Source: Gillisia limnaea DSM 15749 (GTDB lineage Bacteria > Bacteroidota > Bacteroidia > Flavobacteriales > Flavobacteriaceae). From it: 64,000 nt of DNA. The notes beneath the pieces were generated by a model. The model did no database searches, was not told where the DNA came from, and saw only the letters and a program-made list of their open reading frames with translations. Shown here piece after piece: positions 1,431-9,917 of this stretch. The stretch is taken from contig NZ_JH594606.1 of assembly GCF_000243235.1 (NCBI RefSeq), positions 2,724,572 to 2,788,571 on the forward strand, in the 5' to 3' direction. Each line of letters starts with the position of its first letter. Within the stretch, counting starts at the first letter, position 1. A program made the position numbers and the translations under genes.

Positions 1431-1559
1431 TTATTTTTTATTTTGCTGTTTTTTAATGGTTTTTTCATCGGTATCAAACTTATTGGTCTTTTGATTTCTA
1501 TCTCCAGTTGGATTAGTAGGATTTTTTTGTTCTTTTGTTCTTTCAAATTTCTTTTCCAT
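1431..1559 (-). CDS. Small hydrophilic ORF (42 aa) upstream of bTHX
   Basis: An ATG-to-TAA frame on the same strand as bTHX and ending two bases before its start codon, so the two could be translated as a pair. The product is rich in Lys, Asn, Gln and Thr (MEKKFERTKEQKNP... ending KKQQNKK) with no hydrophobic segment, which suggests a disordered basic peptide. I do not recognise a family. Its position, an intact start and stop, and the tight junction are the only support; the AT-rich sequence means a chance ORF cannot be excluded. Confidence 0.4.
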   Translation of the reverse strand: MEKKFERTKEQKNPTNPTGDRNQKTNKFDTDEKTIKKQQNKK

Positions 1560-1637
1560 GGTTTCTATTTTTTAAAATTCTAGAAAAAGATACAGAATAT
1601 TAGGTGAAAACTCTATTAATAGGATGTTAGAATTTGG

Positions 1638-2405
1638 TTAAAGATCTCGTAGTGCTTTAATAAAGGAACTGGTTTTATTAGTTCCGGATGCGGTAAGATG
1701 TTTAACAAAAGCGCTGCCTATAATGGCTCCGGTTGCAAATTCAGTAGCCTGATTAAAGGTTTCCTTATCATTGATCCCAAATCCTATAATTTGTGGATTC
1801 TTTAAATTCATAGCGGAAATCCGCTTGAAATATGCTTTAGTGTCTTCGCCAAATCCCTTTGTAGAGCCTGTTACACTGGCACTGCTCACCATATAAATGA
1901 ATCCGTCGGAAACAGAATCTATAAACCGGATGCGTTCCTCTGAAGTTTGAGGAGTGATCAGGAAAATATTGATAATCCCATAGTGCTCAAAAATTGCTTT
2001 ATACTCCTCATTATAAACATTTACAGGAAGATCGGGGATTATTAATCCGTCTATCCCGGCTTCCTGACATTTCTGGCAGAATTTCTCCACCCCATATTGA
2101 AGCATAGGATTGAAATATCCCATAATAATCAATGGAATTTTAACCGTTTCGCGAATATCCTTTAATTGGTTAAACAGCATATTGGTAGTCATTCCGTTTT
2201 TCAAAGCCTGGGTAGAACTTTCCTGAATCGTTGGTCCATCTGCCAAAGGATCGCTGAAGGGTAGTCCAATTTCTATAAAGTCAACCCCGCTTGTTTCCAG
2301 ATCCTTTATAATTTTTACGGTGTCCTCCAATTTTGGATACCCGGCTGTAAAATATATGGACAGGAGTTTTTTGTCTCCATTTAATGTTTTATTGATTCTG
2401 TTCAT
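1638..2405 (-). CDS. trpA: Tryptophan synthase alpha subunit
   Basis: 255 residues, last gene of the leftward trp operon. It cleaves indole-3-glycerol phosphate to indole and glyceraldehyde 3-phosphate, and indole is channelled to TrpB. The catalytic pair is present: Glu45 in 'FIEIGLPFSDP' and Asp56 in 'LADGPTIQ', spaced as Glu49/Asp60 of the enteric enzyme. The phosphate-binding end (GFGINDKE, then GAIIGSAFV) is intact. It lies 64 bases after trpB. Confidence 0.96.
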   Translation of the reverse strand: MNRINKTLNGDKKLLSIYFTAGYPKLEDTVKIIKDLETSGVDFIEIGLPFSDPLADGPTIQESSTQALKNGMTTNMLFNQLKDIRETVKIPLIIMGYFNPMLQYGVEKFCQKCQEAGIDGLIIPDLPVNVYNEEYKAIFEHYGIINIFLITPQTSEERIRFIDSVSDGFIYMVSSASVTGSTKGFGEDTKAYFKRISAMNLKNPQIIGFGINDKETFNQATEFATGAIIGSAFVKHLTASGTNKTSSFIKALRDL

Positions 2406-2469
2406 TGTTGAAGTTTAGATTCCAAACCCTATGATTTCATTACTTGTGAACCAAAGGGTTTGATTTAAA

Positions 2470-3651
2470 TTACAAATTAAAATAATCGATATAGGTGCTT
2501 AAGTCCTTATCTCCCCGTCCTGAAAGGTTCACAACCACAATATCATCTTCTTTAAATTTTCGGTCTTTAAAAATCGCAAGGGCGTGTGAGGTTTCAATGG
2601 CAGGAATAATTCCTTCCAGTTTGGCAAGCTCAATTCCTGCCTGCATAGCGGCTTCATCGGTAATGGAAATAAATTCCCCGCGTCCGGTTCTAAATAAGTT
2701 GGCATGCATGGGCCCTACTCCGGGATAATCCAATCCTGCCGAAATTGAATAGGGCTCTGTGATTTGTCCATCATAGGTTTGCATCAATAAGGTCTTGCTA
2801 CCGTGAATAATTCCTTCTTTCCCCAATGCTGAGGTTGCAGCGCTTTCTCCGGTATAAATTCCTTTCCCGGCCGCTTCTACTGCAATAATACCCACTTCGG
2901 GATTATCCAGGTAATGAAAATAAGCTCCGGCAGCATTGCTTCCGCCACCAACACAGGCAACGACATAATCTGGATTTTCACGGTTTTCTTTTTCTTTTAA
3001 CTGGATTTTTATCTCTTCTGAGATCACCGCCTGAAACCTGGCAACCATATCTGGATAAGGATGAGGTCCAACTACAGATCCAATGATATAATGCGTATCT
3101 ACCGGATTGTTGATCCAGTCTCTAATTGCCTCATTCGTGGCATCTTTTAAGGTTCTGCTTCCAGATTTTGCCGGAACCACAGTTGCTCCAAGCATTTTCA
3201 TTCTGGCTACGTTGGGGGCTTGTCGTTTAATATCTACCTCGCCCATGTAAACAATGCATTCAATGCCCATCAATGCACAAACTGTTGCTGTTGCTACCCC
3301 ATGTTGGCCTGCGCCGGTTTCAGCAATGATACGGGTTTTGCCAAGGCGTTTTGCCATTAATATCTGCCCCACAGTATTATTGATCTTATGAGCCCCGGTG
3401 TGGCAGAGGTCTTCCCGTTTTAAATATACCTTGGTCTTGTATTTGTTGCTGAATCGTTCCGCAAAATATAGCGGAGTAGGTCTTCCTACATATTCTTTCA
3501 ATAAATAGTTGAATTCTTTCTGAAAGGATTCCTCCTTCATAATATCCAGATATTGGGAACGTAATTCCTCAACATTGGGATAGAGCATTTCGGGAATAAA
3601 AGCTCCTCCAAAATCCCCGTAGTATCCTTTTTCGTTTGCCTGATATGTCAT
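2470..3651 (-). CDS. trpB: Tryptophan synthase beta subunit
   Basis: 393 residues from the ATG at 3651. The frame stays open ten codons further upstream, but homologues begin at [19 protein letters not shown]-dependent synthesis of tryptophan from indole and serine. The PLP-binding Lys89 lies in HTGAHKINN, and the phosphate loop GGGSNAAG and the substrate loop AETGAGQHG are complete, so this is the standard TrpB1 type. It partners with the trpA product encoded just downstream. Confidence 0.96.
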
Positions 3652-3694
3652 TTTTATCGAGATTAATTTTTTATCCCTCATTGAGGGTTTAATT

Positions 3695-3733
3695 CCCCGA
3701 GGCCCGCCCGAACGGTACGGGCGGACCCCGAGG
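3695..3733. repeat. GC-rich palindromic intergenic repeat between trpF and trpB
   Basis: An inverted repeat CCGCCCG / CGGGCGG (3704-3710 and 3718-3724, 7-base loop), flanked by direct copies of CCCCGAGG at 3695-3702 and 3726-3733. It is far more GC-rich than its surroundings and lies between trpF and trpB. A related ATCCCG...CGGGAT hairpin lies at about 49,115. It looks like a dispersed REP-like element; in the transcript it could also act as a processing or stability hairpin. Confidence 0.55.
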
Positions 3734-3741
3734 TTCTTAAT

Positions 3742-4428
3742 TTATTGCAATAATCTTTTGAAAATCTCCAGTTTCTGAAGATCCTTCAGTCCCGGCTTAA
3801 TTTCAAACTTGCTGTTTACATCTATGGCATATACCAAATCCTCTTTTCCTTTTTTTTGAAATTCGGCAATCAGAGATTTAATGCTTTCCAACTCCTCAAT
3901 CCCTATTCCGCCACTTAGGAAAAAGGGTTTTTTTGAAGGGTATTCCTTTAAAATATCCCAGTTAAAAGCGATGCCGTTTCCACCCTTGTTTTTTCCTTTT
4001 GTATCGAACAAAAAGTAATCAACCTCATCTTCATATGGGAATACTATATCAAAGTCAAATTTTTCATTTACAGAAAAAACCTTGATGATCTCCACTTCTG
4101 AAGGTTCGTTTAGTTTCTTTAATTCCTTCTTTAAATCATTACAAAACTGAGGAGTTTCCTCCCCGTGCAACTGAATTGCCTGCAAATTATACCGACTTGC
4201 CTTTTCCAAAATAAAATGGGAAGAAGCATTCACAAAAACTCCGGTATTCTTTATTTCTGAAGAAATTTCAGGGATTTCATGTTCAAAATTCCTTGGAGAT
4301 TTTTCATAGAAGATAAATCCCAGGTAATCCGGTTTTAGGGAAGCAATTTCCAGAATATTCTCTTGAAATTTCATCCCACATACCTTTAGTTTAGGTCCTT
4401 TTATTACGTTAGATTTTGTATCGCTCAT
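3742..4428 (-). CDS. trpF: Phosphoribosylanthranilate isomerase
   Basis: 228 residues. Amadori rearrangement of phosphoribosylanthranilate to CdRP, third step of the pathway. The N-terminal strand motif KVCGMK carries the catalytic Cys, and the phosphate-binding end has FLSGGIGIEEL. The frame begins at MSDTKSN, giving about 15 residues ahead of the barrel. It sits 9 bases after trpC. Confidence 0.94.
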   Translation of the reverse strand: MSDTKSNVIKGPKLKVCGMKFQENILEIASLKPDYLGFIFYEKSPRNFEHEIPEISSEIKNTGVFVNASSHFILEKASRYNLQAIQLHGEETPQFCNDLKKELKKLNEPSEVEIIKVFSVNEKFDFDIVFPYEDEVDYFLFDTKGKNKGGNGIAFNWDILKEYPSKKPFFLSGGIGIEELESIKSLIAEFQKKGKEDLVYAIDVNSKFEIKPGLKDLQKLEIFKRLLQ

Positions 4429-4437
4429 CTTGTTTTA

Positions 4438-5223
4438 TTAAGAATTCAAATCACTTATAAAAGCCGAAGCCATTTTTCCGGGATCATTTGACTTCATAAA
4501 ATTTTCACCGATCAAGAATCCTTGAAATCCGTAATTTTTTAAATCTTTTATTGCCTCCACACTGCTTATTCCGCTTTCTGAAACTTTTACAAATTCATTT
4601 GGGATCTTTTCTGAAAGTTCCTTGCTTATAGCTGTACTTACTTCAAAGGTCTTCAAATTCCTGTTGTTTACACCCAGCATATCAAGACTAGGCATCAACG
4701 ATTTCTCAAGTTCCTCCAAATCATGAACTTCCAACAATACATCCAGGTTCAATCCCTTTGCAAATCCCGACAAATCTTTGATTTGTTTTCTGCTCAAAAT
4801 TGCGGCAATCAATAAGATCGCATCTGCTCCGTGAGCTTTTGCTTCCAGAATTTGATATTCGTCGATAATAAATTCCTTTCTTAACAAAGGCATTTTTACA
4901 GCAGCCCTGGCTAGAATGAGGTCGTCCAGCGATCCACCAAAATACTTGCCATCTGTAAGAACGGACATTCCGCAAACTCCTGCATCTTCATAGCCGCAAG
5001 CGACATCCTGAACATTCAAATCCTGATTGATGACAGCCTTAGAAGGAGATCTTCGTTTATGTTCTGCAATAATACCTATGTTGCTTTTCTTTAAAGCAGA
5101 AGCCAACGAAATTGTTTCCCGCTCAAAAAGTGGATAGTGGGATAGATGCACCGGGGAGATCAATTGCTTTTTTAGGGCAACCTCCTTGTATTTATCGGCT
5201 ATAATTTTATCTAAAATATTCAT
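4438..5223 (-). CDS. trpC: Indole-3-glycerol phosphate synthase
   Basis: 261 residues, TIM-barrel. Closes the indole ring from CdRP with loss of CO2 and water. Visible signatures are IAEHKRRSPSKA (catalytic Lys strand), LLRKEFIIDEYQI, GVNNRNLKTF and VSESGISS, which follow the family order. It is a stand-alone enzyme here, not fused to TrpF as in enteric bacteria. Spacing to trpD is 43 bases and to trpF 9 bases. Confidence 0.95.
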   Translation of the reverse strand: MNILDKIIADKYKEVALKKQLISPVHLSHYPLFERETISLASALKKSNIGIIAEHKRRSPSKAVINQDLNVQDVACGYEDAGVCGMSVLTDGKYFGGSLDDLILARAAVKMPLLRKEFIIDEYQILEAKAHGADAILLIAAILSRKQIKDLSGFAKGLNLDVLLEVHDLEELEKSLMPSLDMLGVNNRNLKTFEVSTAISKELSEKIPNEFVKVSESGISSVEAIKDLKNYGFQGFLIGENFMKSNDPGKMASAFISDLNS

Positions 5224-5266
5224 ATAAGCTAGTTGTTTTTCCGACCTTCAAATTTGTTCAAACTCT

Positions 5267-6259
5267 TTATTTACTTAACTCCTGTAGTTTTTTTAGAGCC
5301 TTCAGGGCTTTTCCAGAATGCAGCGATTCTTTTGCCTTTTCAAATCCTTCTTTTGGAGACAGGTTTTGTGTAGTTGCTATAGCCATTCCCGCATTTGCAC
5401 AAGCTACATTTTGCTGGGCTTGTGTTCCTTCTCCTTTTAAAATATTCAGAAAAATTTCAGCGGAAGCTTCTATGGAACCTCCACCTGCGATCTCAGATTC
5501 TTTAAGAGGTTCTAATCCAAAATCTGATGCTTCTAAAATACCTTCAGTAGTATTCGAAATGGTTTTTGTCGCTCCTGTTAAAGAAATTTCATCATAGCCG
5601 TCTAATGCGTGCAAAATGGTAAAATTCTTATCGGTATTCTGATAAAGATACCCGTACATCCTGGCGAGTTCCAAACTGAAAACACCCACGAGTTGATTTT
5701 TAGGAAAAGCTGGATTTACCATAGGCCCAAGCATATTAAAAAAGGTCTTGACTGCGAGGGATTTTCTAATAGGAGCCACATTTTTCATCGCGGGATGGAA
5801 TAGGGGCGCGTGCAAAACGCAAATACCCGCTTGGTCGATGCTTTTTTCTAGAAAATCAGGATCGGTGCTAAATTTAATTCCAAGATATTCCATCACATTT
5901 GAACTTCCACTTATCGAGGAAACTCCATAATTTCCATGCTTGGCAACATGGACTCCTGCCCCGGCGGTAATAAAGGATGAAACCGTAGAAATATTAAACG
6001 TGTCCTTTCCATCTCCTCCGGTACCGCATAGGTCTACCGGATCATATGCGCTAAGATCTATCGCTAGACAAAGGTCTAAAAGTGCATCCCTAAAGCCCTC
6101 CAGCTCTTCTGTAGTGATGCTACGCATCATATAAACCGTTAAAAATGCAGCGATTTGACTTTCGTTATATTCTCCGTTTGAAATATTGACCAAAGCCAGT
6201 TGAGCTTCTTCCCTGGAGATGGTTTCGTGGTTGATGAGCCTGTTAAGTAATTGTTTCAT
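5267..6259 (-). CDS. trpD: Anthranilate phosphoribosyltransferase
   Basis: 330 residues. Transfers phosphoribose from PRPP to anthranilate. The PRPP/Mg motif GTGGDGKDTFNIST is at residues 79-92, and VAKHGNYGVSS at about 105. It is preceded by a 136-base gap before trpG in which I find no ORF, only short stem-forming sequences. Confidence 0.95.
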   Translation of the reverse strand: MKQLLNRLINHETISREEAQLALVNISNGEYNESQIAAFLTVYMMRSITTEELEGFRDALLDLCLAIDLSAYDPVDLCGTGGDGKDTFNISTVSSFITAGAGVHVAKHGNYGVSSISGSSNVMEYLGIKFSTDPDFLEKSIDQAGICVLHAPLFHPAMKNVAPIRKSLAVKTFFNMLGPMVNPAFPKNQLVGVFSLELARMYGYLYQNTDKNFTILHALDGYDEISLTGATKTISNTTEGILEASDFGLEPLKESEIAGGGSIEASAEIFLNILKGEGTQAQQNVACANAGMAIATTQNLSPKEGFEKAKESLHSGKALKALKKLQELSK

Positions 6260-6395
6260 CTATTTTTTTTATTTTTTTAGCGGACGTTTGTAACATCCAT
6301 ATAATCATTCCTCTGTGTGCGAAAATCTTTCTATGTTACTAGAAAGTTTTCTTCGGTTTCCTTCAGGGGAACCCAATAATGAGGAAGTTTTTTTA

Positions 6396-7067
6396 TTAAA
6401 CATTGGTTTTTGCTTCAGGGTTTTGCATTTTTTTTTCTGGTGAAAGAATTGGAGATGGTATATCGATCCAATTGCGTATCATCTTTTTTCCATCAGGTGT
6501 CAAAACCGATTCCGGGTGAAACTGAACACCTCTTACATCATATTCCCTATGACGTAACGACATTACCTGCCCCTTTTCATCATAAGAAGTAGCTTCAAGG
6601 CAATTGGGTAAATTTTGATCGACTACCCAGGAATGATATCGTCCTACTTCAAATTCACTTTCAAGTCCGTGAAATAATTGTTCGTCGGTTACAGAGGTTT
6701 TTATAGAAGTAGCGACTCCATGGTACACCGATTCCAGGTTGATCAGTTTTCCGCCAAAAACTTCACCTATAGCCTGTTGACCAAGGCAAACCCCTAAAAT
6801 GCTTTTTGTGGGAGCATATTTTTCTACAATGGCTTTTAAAAGTCCGGCTTCATCCGGGACACCAGGACCGGGAGAAAGCAGGATCTTGTCAAATTGATCG
6901 ACAAATTCCAGGTCTAATTCATTATTTCTCCGGACGGTTACCAGGCAATCGAATTCCTCAAGATAGTGGACCAGATTGTACACAAAGGAATCATAATTAT
7001 CGATTACCAGCACTTTAACCGGTTTTAGCAGCGGTTGAGATTCTATTTTTTCAGATTTAATATTCAT
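6396..7067 (-). CDS. trpG: Anthranilate synthase component II (glutamine amidotransferase)
   Basis: 223 residues from the ATG at 7067; an upstream in-frame TTG at 7097 is less likely. Class I glutamine amidotransferase supplying ammonia to TrpE. The catalytic Cys is in GVCLGQQAIGE (about residue 94) and the His/Glu of the triad are in GVQFHPESVLT. It lies about 50 bases downstream of trpE, the usual partner order. A shared role with para-aminobenzoate synthase is possible, as in many bacteria with a single amidotransferase, but cannot be judged here. Confidence 0.93.
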   Translation of the reverse strand: MNIKSEKIESQPLLKPVKVLVIDNYDSFVYNLVHYLEEFDCLVTVRRNNELDLEFVDQFDKILLSPGPGVPDEAGLLKAIVEKYAPTKSILGVCLGQQAIGEVFGGKLINLESVYHGVATSIKTSVTDEQLFHGLESEFEVGRYHSWVVDQNLPNCLEATSYDEKGQVMSLRHREYDVRGVQFHPESVLTPDGKKMIRNWIDIPSPILSPEKKMQNPEAKTNV

Positions 7068-7117
7068 TTTTCTTTCTTCCTTAATTTCATTTAGCAACGT
7101 GGGCTGTAGGATGCTTT

Positions 7118-8512
7118 TTATATTTCTTCTGCAAGTTCCAGAGCCCTTGTTAAAGCTCCTAATTTGTTATAGACTTCCTGTAATTCGTTATCTTCATTGG
7201 ATTCGGAAACGATTCCGGCTCCTGCCTGATAATGCAGGTAATGGTTTTTACTCACAAAAGACCGTATGATGATGGCATGATTGAAATTTCCTTCAAAATC
7301 CATAAATCCAATGGCCCCTCCATACGCACTACGGTTCACATTTTCATATTTTTCAATAAGGCTCATCGCGCTGTGTTTTGGCGCTCCGCTTAATGTTCCG
7401 GCCGGAAAGGTGTCAGCTACAACTTGCATAGCGGGTGTGTTTTTATCCTTGGTCCCGGTTACTTTGCTCACCAGATGGATTACATGTGAGAAAAACTGGA
7501 TCTCTTTGTATTTTTCAACTTGTACATTGTTGCTATGGCGGCTAAGATCATTCCTGGCCAGGTCCACAAGCATCACGTGTTCTGCGTTTTCCTTTGTGTC
7601 CGATGAAAGTTCCTTTGCGAGCTCAGCATCCTGTTCATCATTTCCGGTACGTTTAAAGGTACCTGCAATAGGATGTATTTCAGCCTGATCGCCTTTTACC
7701 ACCAATTGAGCTTCCGGAGAACTTCCGAAGATCTTAAAGTTCCCATAATCAAAATAGAATAAGTAGGGGGATGGGTTCACGTTTCTCAATGCCCGGTACA
7801 CATTGAATTCATCTCCTTTAAAAGCCTGGGAAAACCTTCGGGATAATACAAGTTGAAATACATCTCCGCGGTGACAATGTTTTTTGCCAAGTTTTACATT
7901 TTCCCGGAATTCTTCATCCGTAAGGTTTGAAACCGGTTCTTGTTGTCTTTTAAAATTGTAGGTGGCAAAATTTTTCACCTTTAGCAATTGTTCTATTTCC
8001 GCCAGTCTACTTTTAGAATTGTATGTGTGGTCAAAAATATAGGCTTCATTATTAAAATGATTTACTGCAATAATGTTTTGATATACCGCGTAATAAATAT
8101 CCGGGATTTGAAGATCTCCGGTCTTTCTGGCTATTTTGATGTTTTCAAAATATTTTACTCCATCATATGCGATGTACCCGAAAAGCCCATTGTTTATAAA
8201 TTTGAAGTCAGAATTTTCGGTTTTGAATCGCTTTGAGAATTCCTGGATTTTGTTGGGGATATTTATTTCAGAAGAAATTTCGGTCTTTTCGATACTTCCG
8301 TCAGGAAAGGACTCTGTGATAATTTCATTTTCAATTTTAATTGAAGCGATTGGATTGCAACAGATATAAGAAAAACTATTGTCACTTGCATGGTAATCAC
8401 TGCTCTCCAAAAGCAGACTATTAGGGTATTTGTCCCTGATTTTTAGGTAGACGCTTACCGGTGTGATGGTATCTGCAAGAAGTTTTTTAAACGTGGTGGT
8501 TAATTGATACAT
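7118..8512 (-). CDS. trpE: Anthranilate synthase component I
   Basis: 464 residues, first structural gene of the operon. Converts chorismate and ammonia to anthranilate. The N-terminal LLES motif (SLLLESSDYHA, about residue 33), part of the tryptophan feedback site, is present, and the chorismate-binding half has HPIAGTFKRTG, DLARNDLSR, FPAGTLSGAPK and YGGAIGF. It begins right after the leader-ORF/terminator region, so both transcription attenuation and feedback inhibition are expected. Confidence 0.95.
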   Translation of the reverse strand: MYQLTTTFKKLLADTITPVSVYLKIRDKYPNSLLLESSDYHASDNSFSYICCNPIASIKIENEIITESFPDGSIEKTEISSEINIPNKIQEFSKRFKTENSDFKFINNGLFGYIAYDGVKYFENIKIARKTGDLQIPDIYYAVYQNIIAVNHFNNEAYIFDHTYNSKSRLAEIEQLLKVKNFATYNFKRQQEPVSNLTDEEFRENVKLGKKHCHRGDVFQLVLSRRFSQAFKGDEFNVYRALRNVNPSPYLFYFDYGNFKIFGSSPEAQLVVKGDQAEIHPIAGTFKRTGNDEQDAELAKELSSDTKENAEHVMLVDLARNDLSRHSNNVQVEKYKEIQFFSHVIHLVSKVTGTKDKNTPAMQVVADTFPAGTLSGAPKHSAMSLIEKYENVNRSAYGGAIGFMDFEGNFNHAIIIRSFVSKNHYLHYQAGAGIVSESNEDNELQEVYNKLGALTRALELAEEI

Positions 8513-8530
8513 TTCTATAATTTATTGAAT

Positions 8531-8560
8531 GAAAAAAGGCTTGTCGTGAGACAAGCCTTT
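8531..8560 (-). terminator. trp attenuator terminator hairpin
   Basis: Perfect 11-bp stem (AAAGGCTTGTC with GACAAGCCTTT, loop of 4 bases at 8546-8549), followed on the transcribed minus strand by a run of six T at 8532-8537. It stands between the Trp-rich leader ORF and the trpE start, the place of the terminator in ribosome-mediated attenuators. Confidence 0.88.
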
Positions 8561-8586
8561 GTATATTATTTTATACGAGTGCAGTG

Positions 8587-8649
8587 TTACTTCACGTTGT
8601 GTTGACGTAAGCTATTCCACCACCAGGTATTTGCTGTATTATTTTTCAT
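8587..8649 (-). CDS. trpL: trp operon leader peptide with WWW
   Basis: A 20-residue ORF starting MKNNTANT, followed by three consecutive Trp codons (8617-8625) and ending with TAA at 8587-8589. Trp is the rarest residue, and three in a row ahead of a terminator and trpE is diagnostic of attenuation: when charged tRNA-Trp is scarce a ribosome would stall here and prevent the terminator from forming. I did not find an unambiguous antiterminator pairing by eye. The start codon sits 5 bases after a -7 box, so the transcript may be leaderless. Confidence 0.87.
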   Translation of the reverse strand: MKNNTANTWWWNSLRQHNVK

Positions 8650-8654
8650 TGCAT

Positions 8655-8685
8655 CAAATATACTTATGATATTTTAAATAGCAAA
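8655..8685 (-). promoter_or_regulatory. Promoter of the trp operon
   Basis: Bacteroidota-type promoter on the minus strand: TTTG at 8682-8685, a 19-base spacer, and TATATTTG at 8655-8662 (consensus TAnnTTTG). Initiation would be expected around 8648-8650, at the ATG of the leader peptide. Confidence 0.75.
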
Positions 8686-8693
8686 AGTTTTTT

Positions 8694-9263
8694 TTAAAAT
8701 TTAAGATCTACAGCAAGATCAAAATTGTCGTAGATCGTTTTATCCCCCAAATTATCAAAGAAACTTCCCGATCCATAGCGCACATCATATTTTGACCTAT
8801 CAATGCTTAACATAGTAGAAGCCGAATTTTGTTTCCAGTTAAGATCGAAAGTTACTTTGTTTGTTTTATTCTTGATAGTTAAATCTCCAACAGCTCCATA
8901 AACACCATCTGCTTTTTTAGAAATGCTGGTGATTACAAGTTTAGAAGTTGGATATTTTTCTACCCCGAAGAAATCATCTGATTTTAAATGTCCTTCAAGT
9001 TTCCCTTTACTCTCTCCTGAAAGATCGGTATTGATTAATGAGGTCATATCAATTACGAATTCCCCACCAATTGGATTACCACCTTCAACTATAAAATGTC
9101 CTTGCTTAAGTTGGATAGTTCCTGTATGTGATCCCGTTACTTTTTCACCTTTCCAGGTCACCTTGCTTTCTTTAATGTTGATCTCTTTGTTAAGAGAGGT
9201 AAAGGCCAGGGTTGTTAAAATTACTAACGATGCAGCTGCACCTTTTAAAAATCTGTTTTTCAT
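8694..9263 (-). CDS. YceI family periplasmic protein
   Basis: 189 residues with a Sec signal peptide (MKNRFLKG, then a hydrophobic segment). The YceI lipocalin-like barrel is recognisable: SKVTWKGEKVTGSHTG, the repeated strand pattern with FFGVEKYPTSKL, and DLTIKNKTNKV. Family members bind isoprenoid-type lipids in the periplasm. It lies 21 bases downstream of the nitroreductase and is probably in the MarR operon. Its stop is 8 bases from the trp -33 box. Confidence 0.88.
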   Translation of the reverse strand: MKNRFLKGAAASLVILTTLAFTSLNKEINIKESKVTWKGEKVTGSHTGTIQLKQGHFIVEGGNPIGGEFVIDMTSLINTDLSGESKGKLEGHLKSDDFFGVEKYPTSKLVITSISKKADGVYGAVGDLTIKNKTNKVTFDLNWKQNSASTMLSIDRSKYDVRYGSGSFFDNLGDKTIYDNFDLAVDLKF

Positions 9264-9284
9264 GATAATTTACTTTTAAGTGGT

Positions 9285-9917
9285 TTATAATCTATTAAAT
9301 AATTCTTCTTTGCTTTTTCTTACTTTAACGGCGTGTTGAAGTTGATCTTCCTCGCTTCTGTATCCTATGGTTGCAACTACTGCGGTTGTGAGACCTTTTT
9401 CTTTAAGGCCAAGGATTTCGTCAAATTTATCTGCTTCAAAACCTTCCATTGGGCAGGCATCAATTTTAAAATTTGCTGCAGCAGACAGCAGGTTTCCCAG
9501 CGCTATATACGTTTGATTTGCTGCCCACTGGTTTTTCTCCTCCGGACTAAATTTTAAAACTGTGTTATCCAGCATTTCTTCTAACCCGGCAAGATCCTTT
9601 CTTTTGGTTGTTCTCGTTTTAGCTATATTATCCAGGTAGCCATCTACATAGGATTTATCAATTTCGGCTAAATTGGCAAAGACCAAAAGGTGGGAAGCAT
9701 CTGTAATTTGTGGTTGATCAAATGCTGCAGATTGCAATTTGTTGCGGAGTTCGGCATTTTTGATTACAAAGATTTCATAGGGTTGCAGGCCATATGAGGA
9801 TGCTGAAAGTTGGATGGCTTCCAATAATTCCTCGAGGTCTTCTTCCGAAACCTTTTTAGAAGTGTCGAATATTTTAGTGGCATAACGCCAGTTTAGTGTT
9901 TCAATATAATTTTTCAT
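9285..9917 (-). CDS. NAD(P)H-dependent nitroreductase (NfsB-like)
   Basis: 210 residues. FMN-dependent nitroreductase fold with the N-terminal pattern LNWRYATKIFD and SASSYGLQPYEIFVI, and the C-terminal NFKIDACPMEGFE and GLKEKGLTTAVVATIGYRSE typical of NfsB/FMN oxidoreductases. It likely reduces quinones or nitro compounds with NAD(P)H. It begins 10 bases after the MarR gene, so it is a probable target of that regulator. Confidence 0.88.
   Translation of the reverse strand: MKNYIETLNWRYATKIFDTSKKVSEEDLEELLEAIQLSASSYGLQPYEIFVIKNAELRNKLQSAAFDQPQITDASHLLVFANLAEIDKSYVDGYLDNIAKTRTTKRKDLAGLEEMLDNTVLKFSPEEKNQWAANQTYIALGNLLSAAANFKIDACPMEGFEADKFDEILGLKEKGLTTAVVATIGYRSEEDQLQHAVKVRKSKEELFNRL

Follow-up and report, generated by a model that had tools for sequence, protein, structure and literature searches.

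On the minus strand of Gillisia limnaea DSM 15749 (GCF_000243235.1, contig NZ_JH594606.1), a promoter of the form TTTG-N19-TATATTTG (8685–8655) is followed by a leader ORF, a terminator, and then trpE, G, D, C, F, B, and A, which constitute a complete trp operon (trpEGDCFBA, 8512–1638). Positions refer to the window, that is, the whole analyzed stretch of 64,000 nucleotides (contig positions 2,724,572–2,788,571). The best NCBIfam match of trpE is TIGR00564 with 435.5 bits, which lies below the cut-off of 517.7, and trpF also scores under the cut-offs of its best NCBIfam models. Upstream of the leader, a gene on the same strand that is weakly YceI-like (33.9 bits, cut-off 232) ends at 8694. The individual features are:

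8682–8685, minus strand: −33 promoter element TTTG, 19 nt 5′ of the −7 box (direct reading)
8655–8662, minus strand: −7 promoter element TATATTTG, consensus TAnnTTTG (direct reading)
8587–8649, minus strand: trpL leader ORF MKNNTANTWWWNSLRQHNVK, 20 amino acids and a TAA stop codon
8617–8625, minus strand: three tandem Trp codons TGGTGGTGG (WWW), kept in relatives, proposed sensor and stall site (direct reading)
8605–8610, minus strand: segment 1, UUACGU, predicted to pair with segment 2 in a protecting hairpin (consensus fold)
8592–8596, minus strand: segment 2 core, CGUGA, putative antiterminator strand adjoining the leader stop codon (duplex and folding tests)
8581–8591, minus strand: outer antiterminator strand AGUAACACUGC, predicted to pair with the terminator 5′ arm (folds and Rfam alignment)
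8550–8560, minus strand: terminator 5′ arm (direct reading, fold against shuffles, covariation)
8545–8549, minus strand: segment 3 core, UCACG, comprising the loop and the first base of the 3′ arm, putative partner of segment 2
8535–8545, minus strand: terminator 3′ arm (direct reading, fold against shuffles, covariation)
8532–8537, minus strand: T-run of the terminator (direct reading)
7118–8512, minus strand: trpE, first structural gene (best NCBIfam match TIGR00564, sub-cut-off)

A preceding sequence-only reading had described a 20-codon ORF with three adjacent Trp codons (8649–8587, codons at 8625–8617), an 11-bp perfect hairpin with a T-run before trpE, and an exact promoter; these features and all of their coordinates proved correct.

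The Terminator

The hairpin (8560–8550/8545–8535, loop TCAC, T-run 8537–8532, minus strand) is a perfect helix of 11 bp. Its folding energy of −16.2 kcal/mol corresponds to a z of −8.5 and was matched by none of 200 shuffles, while the whole leader folds at z −3.7 relative to shuffles. Among the 14 terminator-like sites listed for 1500–9400, where 6.5 are expected, the trp terminator has the longest stem. For comparison across the family we used a non-redundant alignment of 48 leaders, from which leaders more than 90% alike and the one leader of another family (L041) were left out: All 517 of 517 cells of the 11-pair helix are paired (100%), a value that none of 500 shuffles equaled, and the terminator covaries, with five pairs carrying changes on both sides. 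On the plus strand, 8438–8567 bears a weak likeness to the sRNAs BTnc231, BTnc060, and STnc370, all far below the cut-offs, which probably reflects a shared terminator shape.

Relation to a Known RNA Family

The region 8669–8550 matches the Rfam family RF01692 “Bacteroid-trp” with 56.5 bits (gathering score 49), and since this lies above the cut-off, the locus belongs to a known kind. All 16 of 16 genomes of the host genus have a match, as do 35 of the 41 family genomes sampled; across the phylum, 42 of 395 genomes were matched, 38 of them above the cut-off. One of the six family genomes lacking a match was read (G118) and has both leader and terminator (L149). As a member of the family (PMC2864571), the locus aligns with the model in the leader ORF region, the upstream fold, and the start of the terminator. 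The model, in contrast, stops within the terminator 5′ arm, and both the terminator helix and the antiterminator are missing from it. In the table of the 2010 description, the motif is entered as “y” for RNA, “y” for cis-regulation, and “n” for switch, and it is described as a likely cis-regulatory RNA of Bacteroidetes (PMC2864571). The element has also been noted upstream of trp in Flavobacterium psychrophilum (PMC6414381). For the same organism, section 19 of PMC9723704 presents clues for leader-peptide attenuation in the 5′ regions of amino-acid operons, the type of control considered here, and describes no antiterminator for these regions. The passages found on Bacteroidetes trp leaders likewise contain no antiterminator; attenuators of Bacteroidetes may be treated in Vitreschak et al. 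2004 and in Lopatovskaya et al. 2010. The sequence-only reading had placed the well-studied trp attenuators in Proteobacteria and Bacillus. As a kind the locus is not new, given RF01692 and the leader-peptide attenuation already proposed for Flavobacterium; the attenuator reading itself is supported.

Two arrangements were noted among the RF01692 matches. L028 (duplicate L150) is an attenuator of this type ahead of an apparent trpB, as judged by eye, and in G238, G347, and G351 the RNA lies about 1.3 kb from trpE, leaving room for one gene.

Conservation of Leader and Terminator

We examined the 80 named relatives (L043–L122) that are the best of 544 candidates by trpE similarity and thus not a random sample. 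A Trp-rich leader followed by a terminator was found upstream of trpE in 80/80, and three Trp codons are adjacent in 79 of them, L070 having two. Consequently, loss of the Trp codons or the hairpin in related genomes, which had been named as evidence against an attenuator, was not observed. With regard to detection, one terminator scan missed L028 and L036 of 122 leaders, both of which were found by another scan.

In nine named relatives the Trp codons are located 368–564 nt from trpE. Eight of these (L043, L045, L047, L084, L095, L097, L101, and L105; 469–564 nt) carry a small GIY-YIG-like ORF, named by eye, between terminator and trpE, and the ninth (L099, 368 nt) has an apparent remnant of it.

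These conserved Trp codons bear on control by an RNA-binding protein such as TRAP or by a T-box, for which they would be incidental. Either type of control is known for trp operons outside this phylum. In the genome, the TRAP family PF02081 gave no match in a search whose control found Bacillus subtilis, and no T-box reached the gathering score in the window or E ≤ 1 within 8300–8900. Together with the conservation of the Trp codons across the class, this makes such control hardly credible. The TrpR family PF01371 was also without a match in the genome, with Escherichia coli and Bacillus subtilis found by the control search. The proposal of a ribosome-mediated trp attenuator is thus supported by conserved tandem Trp codons, a conserved terminator and operon, and TrpR and TRAP families that are unmatched in the genome.

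A Candidate Antiterminator and Protecting Hairpin

Of 116 leaders, namely L041 and 115 from the family, 111 carry the motif CGTGA downstream of the Trp codons; it is extended to TCGTGA in 107, such that the segment 2 core of most relatives reads UCGUGA. Its position is nearly invariant: In 109 of the 116 it lies at +28/29 nt, counted from the first Trp codon. The relation to the reading frame is not: Among the 111 leaders all three frames are used (96, 13, and 2), and the TGA of the motif is itself the leader stop codon in 92, with the stop located 5 nt later in 12 and elsewhere in 7. Because CGTGA is kept irrespective of frame and stop, the constraint appears to act on the RNA. The complementary TCACG(A) makes up the terminator loop and the top of the 3′ arm. 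Upstream, 90 of the 115 family leaders contain TTACG, 84 of them at +15, and the codons at this site are fixed, with Leu encoded by TTA in 89/92 and Arg by CGT in 79/92 family leaders; in trpE of the window the same codons account for 7/33 and 2/17, respectively.

This pattern also bears on an arrest peptide of the TnaC kind, which would sense free tryptophan in the ribosome rather than charged tRNA via its codons. The peptide ends do appear conserved in the family (NNLRQTS), yet the conserved letters survive shifts of frame and stop, so that conservation independent of either was found rather than a constraint on the peptide over the RNA. Moreover, the choice among synonymous codons is itself fixed, the leader C-termini vary between families, and induction by free tryptophan has the wrong sign for a biosynthetic operon. 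We therefore consider a TnaC-like leader very improbable and return to the pairing of the RNA.

Alternative pairings were computed by consensus folding of the 48 leaders: If the end of the 3′ arm is omitted, UCGUGA pairs with UCACGA and further pairs extend into the 5′ arm; if the full 3′ arm is included, the terminator forms. In the same analysis, UUACG:CGUGA appears as a candidate protecting hairpin. Comparison thus indicates, as the likely antiterminator strand, the segment next to the stop codon of the leader, with the terminator loop, its top, and, further out, its 5′ arm as partners. When a ribosome with an assumed footprint of −15 to +13 is placed on the stop codon, CGTGA would be covered in 110 of 111 leaders. 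Searched against the genome, CGTGA-N30–60-TCACGACA had a single match, which lies at trp; a reversed control also had one.

The sequence-only reading had proposed an examination of covariation upstream of trpE. It succeeded for the terminator, with its five two-sided pairs, and failed as proof of the antiterminator: 84.8% of 374 cells are paired within the family, and 317 of 500 column shuffles score as high. The core hardly varies. Slid registers of the same alignment pair less, in 16.1–56.2% of cells.

Duplex energies were compared in 150 of 153 leaders (all but L069, L136, and L141). In 106/150, pairing with the leader’s own terminator is better than with shuffles at p ≤ 0.05; as related genomes do not give independent p-values against shuffles, combined values serve as a guide only. 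Among 33 divergent leaders, 14 reach p ≤ 0.05 and 24 reach p ≤ 0.2, with none at p > 0.5, and the mean duplex energy is −18.0 kcal/mol with the own terminator as opposed to −13.7 kcal/mol with those of other genomes; in L129, L131, and L134, pairing with the own terminator is worse than the average with others’. Several divergent genomes form the pairing from other letters, namely GUCGUAAG with CUUGCGGC (L002), GAUGAACA with UGUUCAUC (L126), and UUGAAUCGG with CCGAUUCAA (L132), and by eye L186, L188, and L195 combine GUGAACAGC-type with GCUGUUCAC-type sequences. It is mainly this re-creation of the pairing by different sequences that points to an antiterminator.

We also folded growing transcripts with a ribosome placed on the third Trp codon and recorded how many nucleotides of the 3′ arm are present when the terminator wins. 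The comparison comprised 171 leaders, 115 of the family and 56 divergent ones; the tallies omit L150, the duplicate of L028, as well as L136 and L141, which are without a terminator by the rule used. In the family the terminator wins at 9.0 nt, compared with 4.8 nt for shuffled sequences, and in 100/115 leaders at most one of 30 shuffles reaches the real delay; more than three do so in 7/115, the window among them. The corresponding values for the divergent leaders are 8.6 versus 5.4 nt, with at most one of 30 shuffles in 27/56 and at least six in 10/56; in L138, L143, and L152 the delay is not above the shuffle mean. The terminator also wins later with the stalled ribosome than with one at the stop codon (115/115 family and 55/56 divergent leaders), a difference that arises in part by construction, upstream RNA being absent from the stop state, for which reason the comparison with shuffles alone was used. 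In the 15 leaders modelled, the terminator has a probability of at least 0.70 at full length in every state; as it is dominant in all states, the switch must rest on timing.

The Putative Antiterminator in Gillisia limnaea

The window departs from its relatives in the segment 2 core: CAACGTGA is found at 8592–8599, whereas the other 15 species of the genus set (16 in total) have the TCGTGA core, which leaves five core antiterminator pairs. An alternative pairing that excludes 8550–8560, which was to be sought by folding with a stalled ribosome, was indeed found and involves segment 2 together with AGUAACACUGC. With the ribosome on the third Trp codon, it stays dominant over roughly the first 5 nt of the 3′ arm and the terminator is half-formed at 6; on the first Trp codon, dominance lasts to about 3 nt, with a delay of 4 nt. 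The duplex, at −8.4 versus −7.6 kcal/mol for shuffles, is not significant (p 0.33), so that an antiterminator could not be derived from the window sequence alone, and the delay of 6 nt with the stalled ribosome, compared with 4.8 nt for shuffled sequences, is matched by 9 of 30 shuffles. In the ribosome-free transcript the terminator is half-formed at 5–6 nt of the 3′ arm, a delay similar to that with the third Trp codon occupied and longer than that with the first, so that folding alone cannot separate the ribosome-free from the stalled state in this species. Segments 1 and 2 pair in the full-length fold of the window, in which the CAC of AGUAACACUGC also pairs with the Trp codons; shorter ribosome-free transcripts favor another fold. 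The earlier remark that the antiterminator is not obvious is thus valid for the window by itself (p 0.33) and no longer holds once relatives are compared, where a candidate antiterminator is recognizable. Since the pairing in the window is short and non-significant, the mechanism there is deduced from relatives.

These results raise the possibility of decay, that is, an attenuator of the same kind whose antiterminator has degenerated in the window, leaving the operon mostly terminated or with partial read-through only. The replacement of TCGTGA by CAACGTGA and duplex and folding tests that do not exceed shuffles favor it; leader, Trp codons, terminator, and promoter are nevertheless intact, the trp operon is complete, and the predicted antiterminator continues to prevail over some 5 nt of the 3′ arm when a ribosome occupies the third Trp codon. 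We regard decay as unlikely and retain the functional switch as the preferred reading. Because the antiterminator is short, derepression may be weaker than in relatives, and weaker induction of trpE in Gillisia limnaea is a fair prediction.

Promoter and Predicted mRNA Start

In F. psychrophilum the TAnnTTTG box is located at −12 to −5 (PMC9723704, section 15). Applied to 8662–8655, this spacing places the predicted start at 8650, 1 nt ahead of the leader ATG, and the leader mRNA would accordingly be leaderless. We counted the box in 80 leaders, that of the window and those of 79 out of the 80 named relatives: Its distance from the leader ATG is at most 40 nt in 76/80 and at most 8 nt in 49/80, and 1.1% of simple shuffles carry it in the last 16 nt. 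The spacing varies in the 14 leaders from genomes named Flavobacterium, amounting to 16–18 nt in 10 and 4 nt in 4. The low share of leaderless mRNAs reported for F. psychrophilum, only 5.5% (PMC9723704), counts against a general rule.

An RNA that starts with the leader ATG, as predicted here, is also found in Sinorhizobium meliloti, where the leaderless trp leader RNA rnTrpL and its peptide peTrpL are reported to act in trans (PMC7298713). This trp attenuator belongs to another phylum than Gillisia limnaea and resembles it further in that attenuation operates without transcriptional repression (PMC7298713). A terminated leader RNA or peptide might thus act in trans in addition to its control in cis, which the predicted leaderless, terminated transcript favors by its likeness to rnTrpL (PMC7298713). 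As the cis pairings already account for the conservation of loop and arm, we consider such an additional role improbable.

Proposed Mechanism

The sequence shows which elements are present, folding and comparison show that they are conserved and can pair in alternative ways, and from this we infer stalling, the switch itself, the ribosome-free state, and the leaderless start. Conservation and modelling together make it highly likely that transcription of the trp operon is attenuated here by a ribosome-mediated mechanism that switches via an antiterminator freed by a stalled ribosome, and the leader very probably lets the trp genes switch on when tryptophan is scarce. If little Trp-tRNA is available, the ribosome would stall on the Trp codons and mask these and, at least partly, segment 1. 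Segment 2 (CGUGA and AGUAACACUGC) would then be free to pair with the emerging terminator loop, its top, and its 5′ arm, and RNA polymerase would continue into trpE. If tryptophan is plentiful, the ribosome would reach the stop codon and cover segment 2, upon which the terminator would form. Without a ribosome, segment 1 would pair with segment 2 and the Trp codons with CAC, much as in the structure that Rfam holds for the family, and the terminator would likewise form.

The attenuator of E. coli trpL comprises tandem Trp codons and protecting, antiterminator, and terminator structures, with Trp-tRNA as the signal. The locus shares the tandem Trp codons and the terminator; its putative antiterminator and protecting hairpin would correspond to those of E. 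coli, with Trp-tRNA as the predicted signal. Unlike in E. coli, the putative antiterminator strand extends across the leader stop codon and would pair with the terminator loop and the top of the 3′ arm besides the 5′ arm; in addition, there is no TrpR family match in the genome, and the leader mRNA is predicted to be leaderless. The suggestion that the pairing logic may differ from the enteric model does not seem to be borne out: A candidate antiterminator and a candidate protecting hairpin are recognizable by comparison, and the pairing seems to follow the enteric logic in other letters. With a classical design the surprise is limited; what the comparison adds is a likely antiterminator and a likely protecting hairpin, which divergent genomes re-create with other sequences, and a distribution wider than that of RF01692.

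Distribution Outside the Family and Implications

Two samples of the class were read outside the family. The first comprised all 26 genomes of the same order or class with a trpE match, and a leader with two or more Trp codons is present in 26/26; 24 terminators were found by scan and those of L136 and L141 by eye, the former with a poor T-run. The second comprised 30 further genomes, of which L162, L174, and L175 were short of upstream DNA; a leader with two or more Trp codons and a terminator occurs in 21 of the remaining 27, a leader with a single Trp codon in four (L161, L165, L173, and L190), and none in two (L160 and L182). Taken together, 47 of the 53 trpE genes examined in the class beyond the family are preceded by a Trp-rich leader. 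These 53 loci and three from other classes contained no leader family at the Rfam cut-off (one tRNA was found). Outside the class, 23 of 125 trpE-matched genomes were read: Leader and terminator are present in 14 (3 by scan, 11 by eye), and of the other nine, eight lack a leader and L229 is ambiguous.

By eye, L161, L165, and L173 belong to one genus with a conserved single-Trp leader (MKLWQKYYSPKPLLIKGMG-like) before a terminator, and L190 is another single-Trp leader. Trp codons alternate with another residue in L169, L170, and L171 (W-R-W), L158 (W-C-W), and L127 and L133 (W-L-W); such leaders perhaps sense two amino acids or have simply diverged.

It is tempting to propose, at a confidence somewhat short of even, that one old attenuator sets trp transcription across Bacteroidia and partly beyond, its letters often rewritten and its plan kept, with many of the mRNAs starting on the leader ATG. 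If this is true, the plan would consist of Trp codons, a short gap, and an antiterminator strand placed on the leader stop codon or close by, which in Flavobacteriaceae-like genomes would grip the terminator loop and both of its shoulders. RF01692 stores only part of this switch and misses many lineages. Knowledge of the antiterminator would turn an unlabelled leader into a testable switch and would allow searches by plan instead of by sequence. F. psychrophilum is stated to be without Shine–Dalgarno sites (PMC9723704). For mRNAs that start on the ATG, ribosome loading at the 5′ end could time the switch without such a site, and the trp leader may offer a simple system for transcription–translation coupling in bacteria that lack them.
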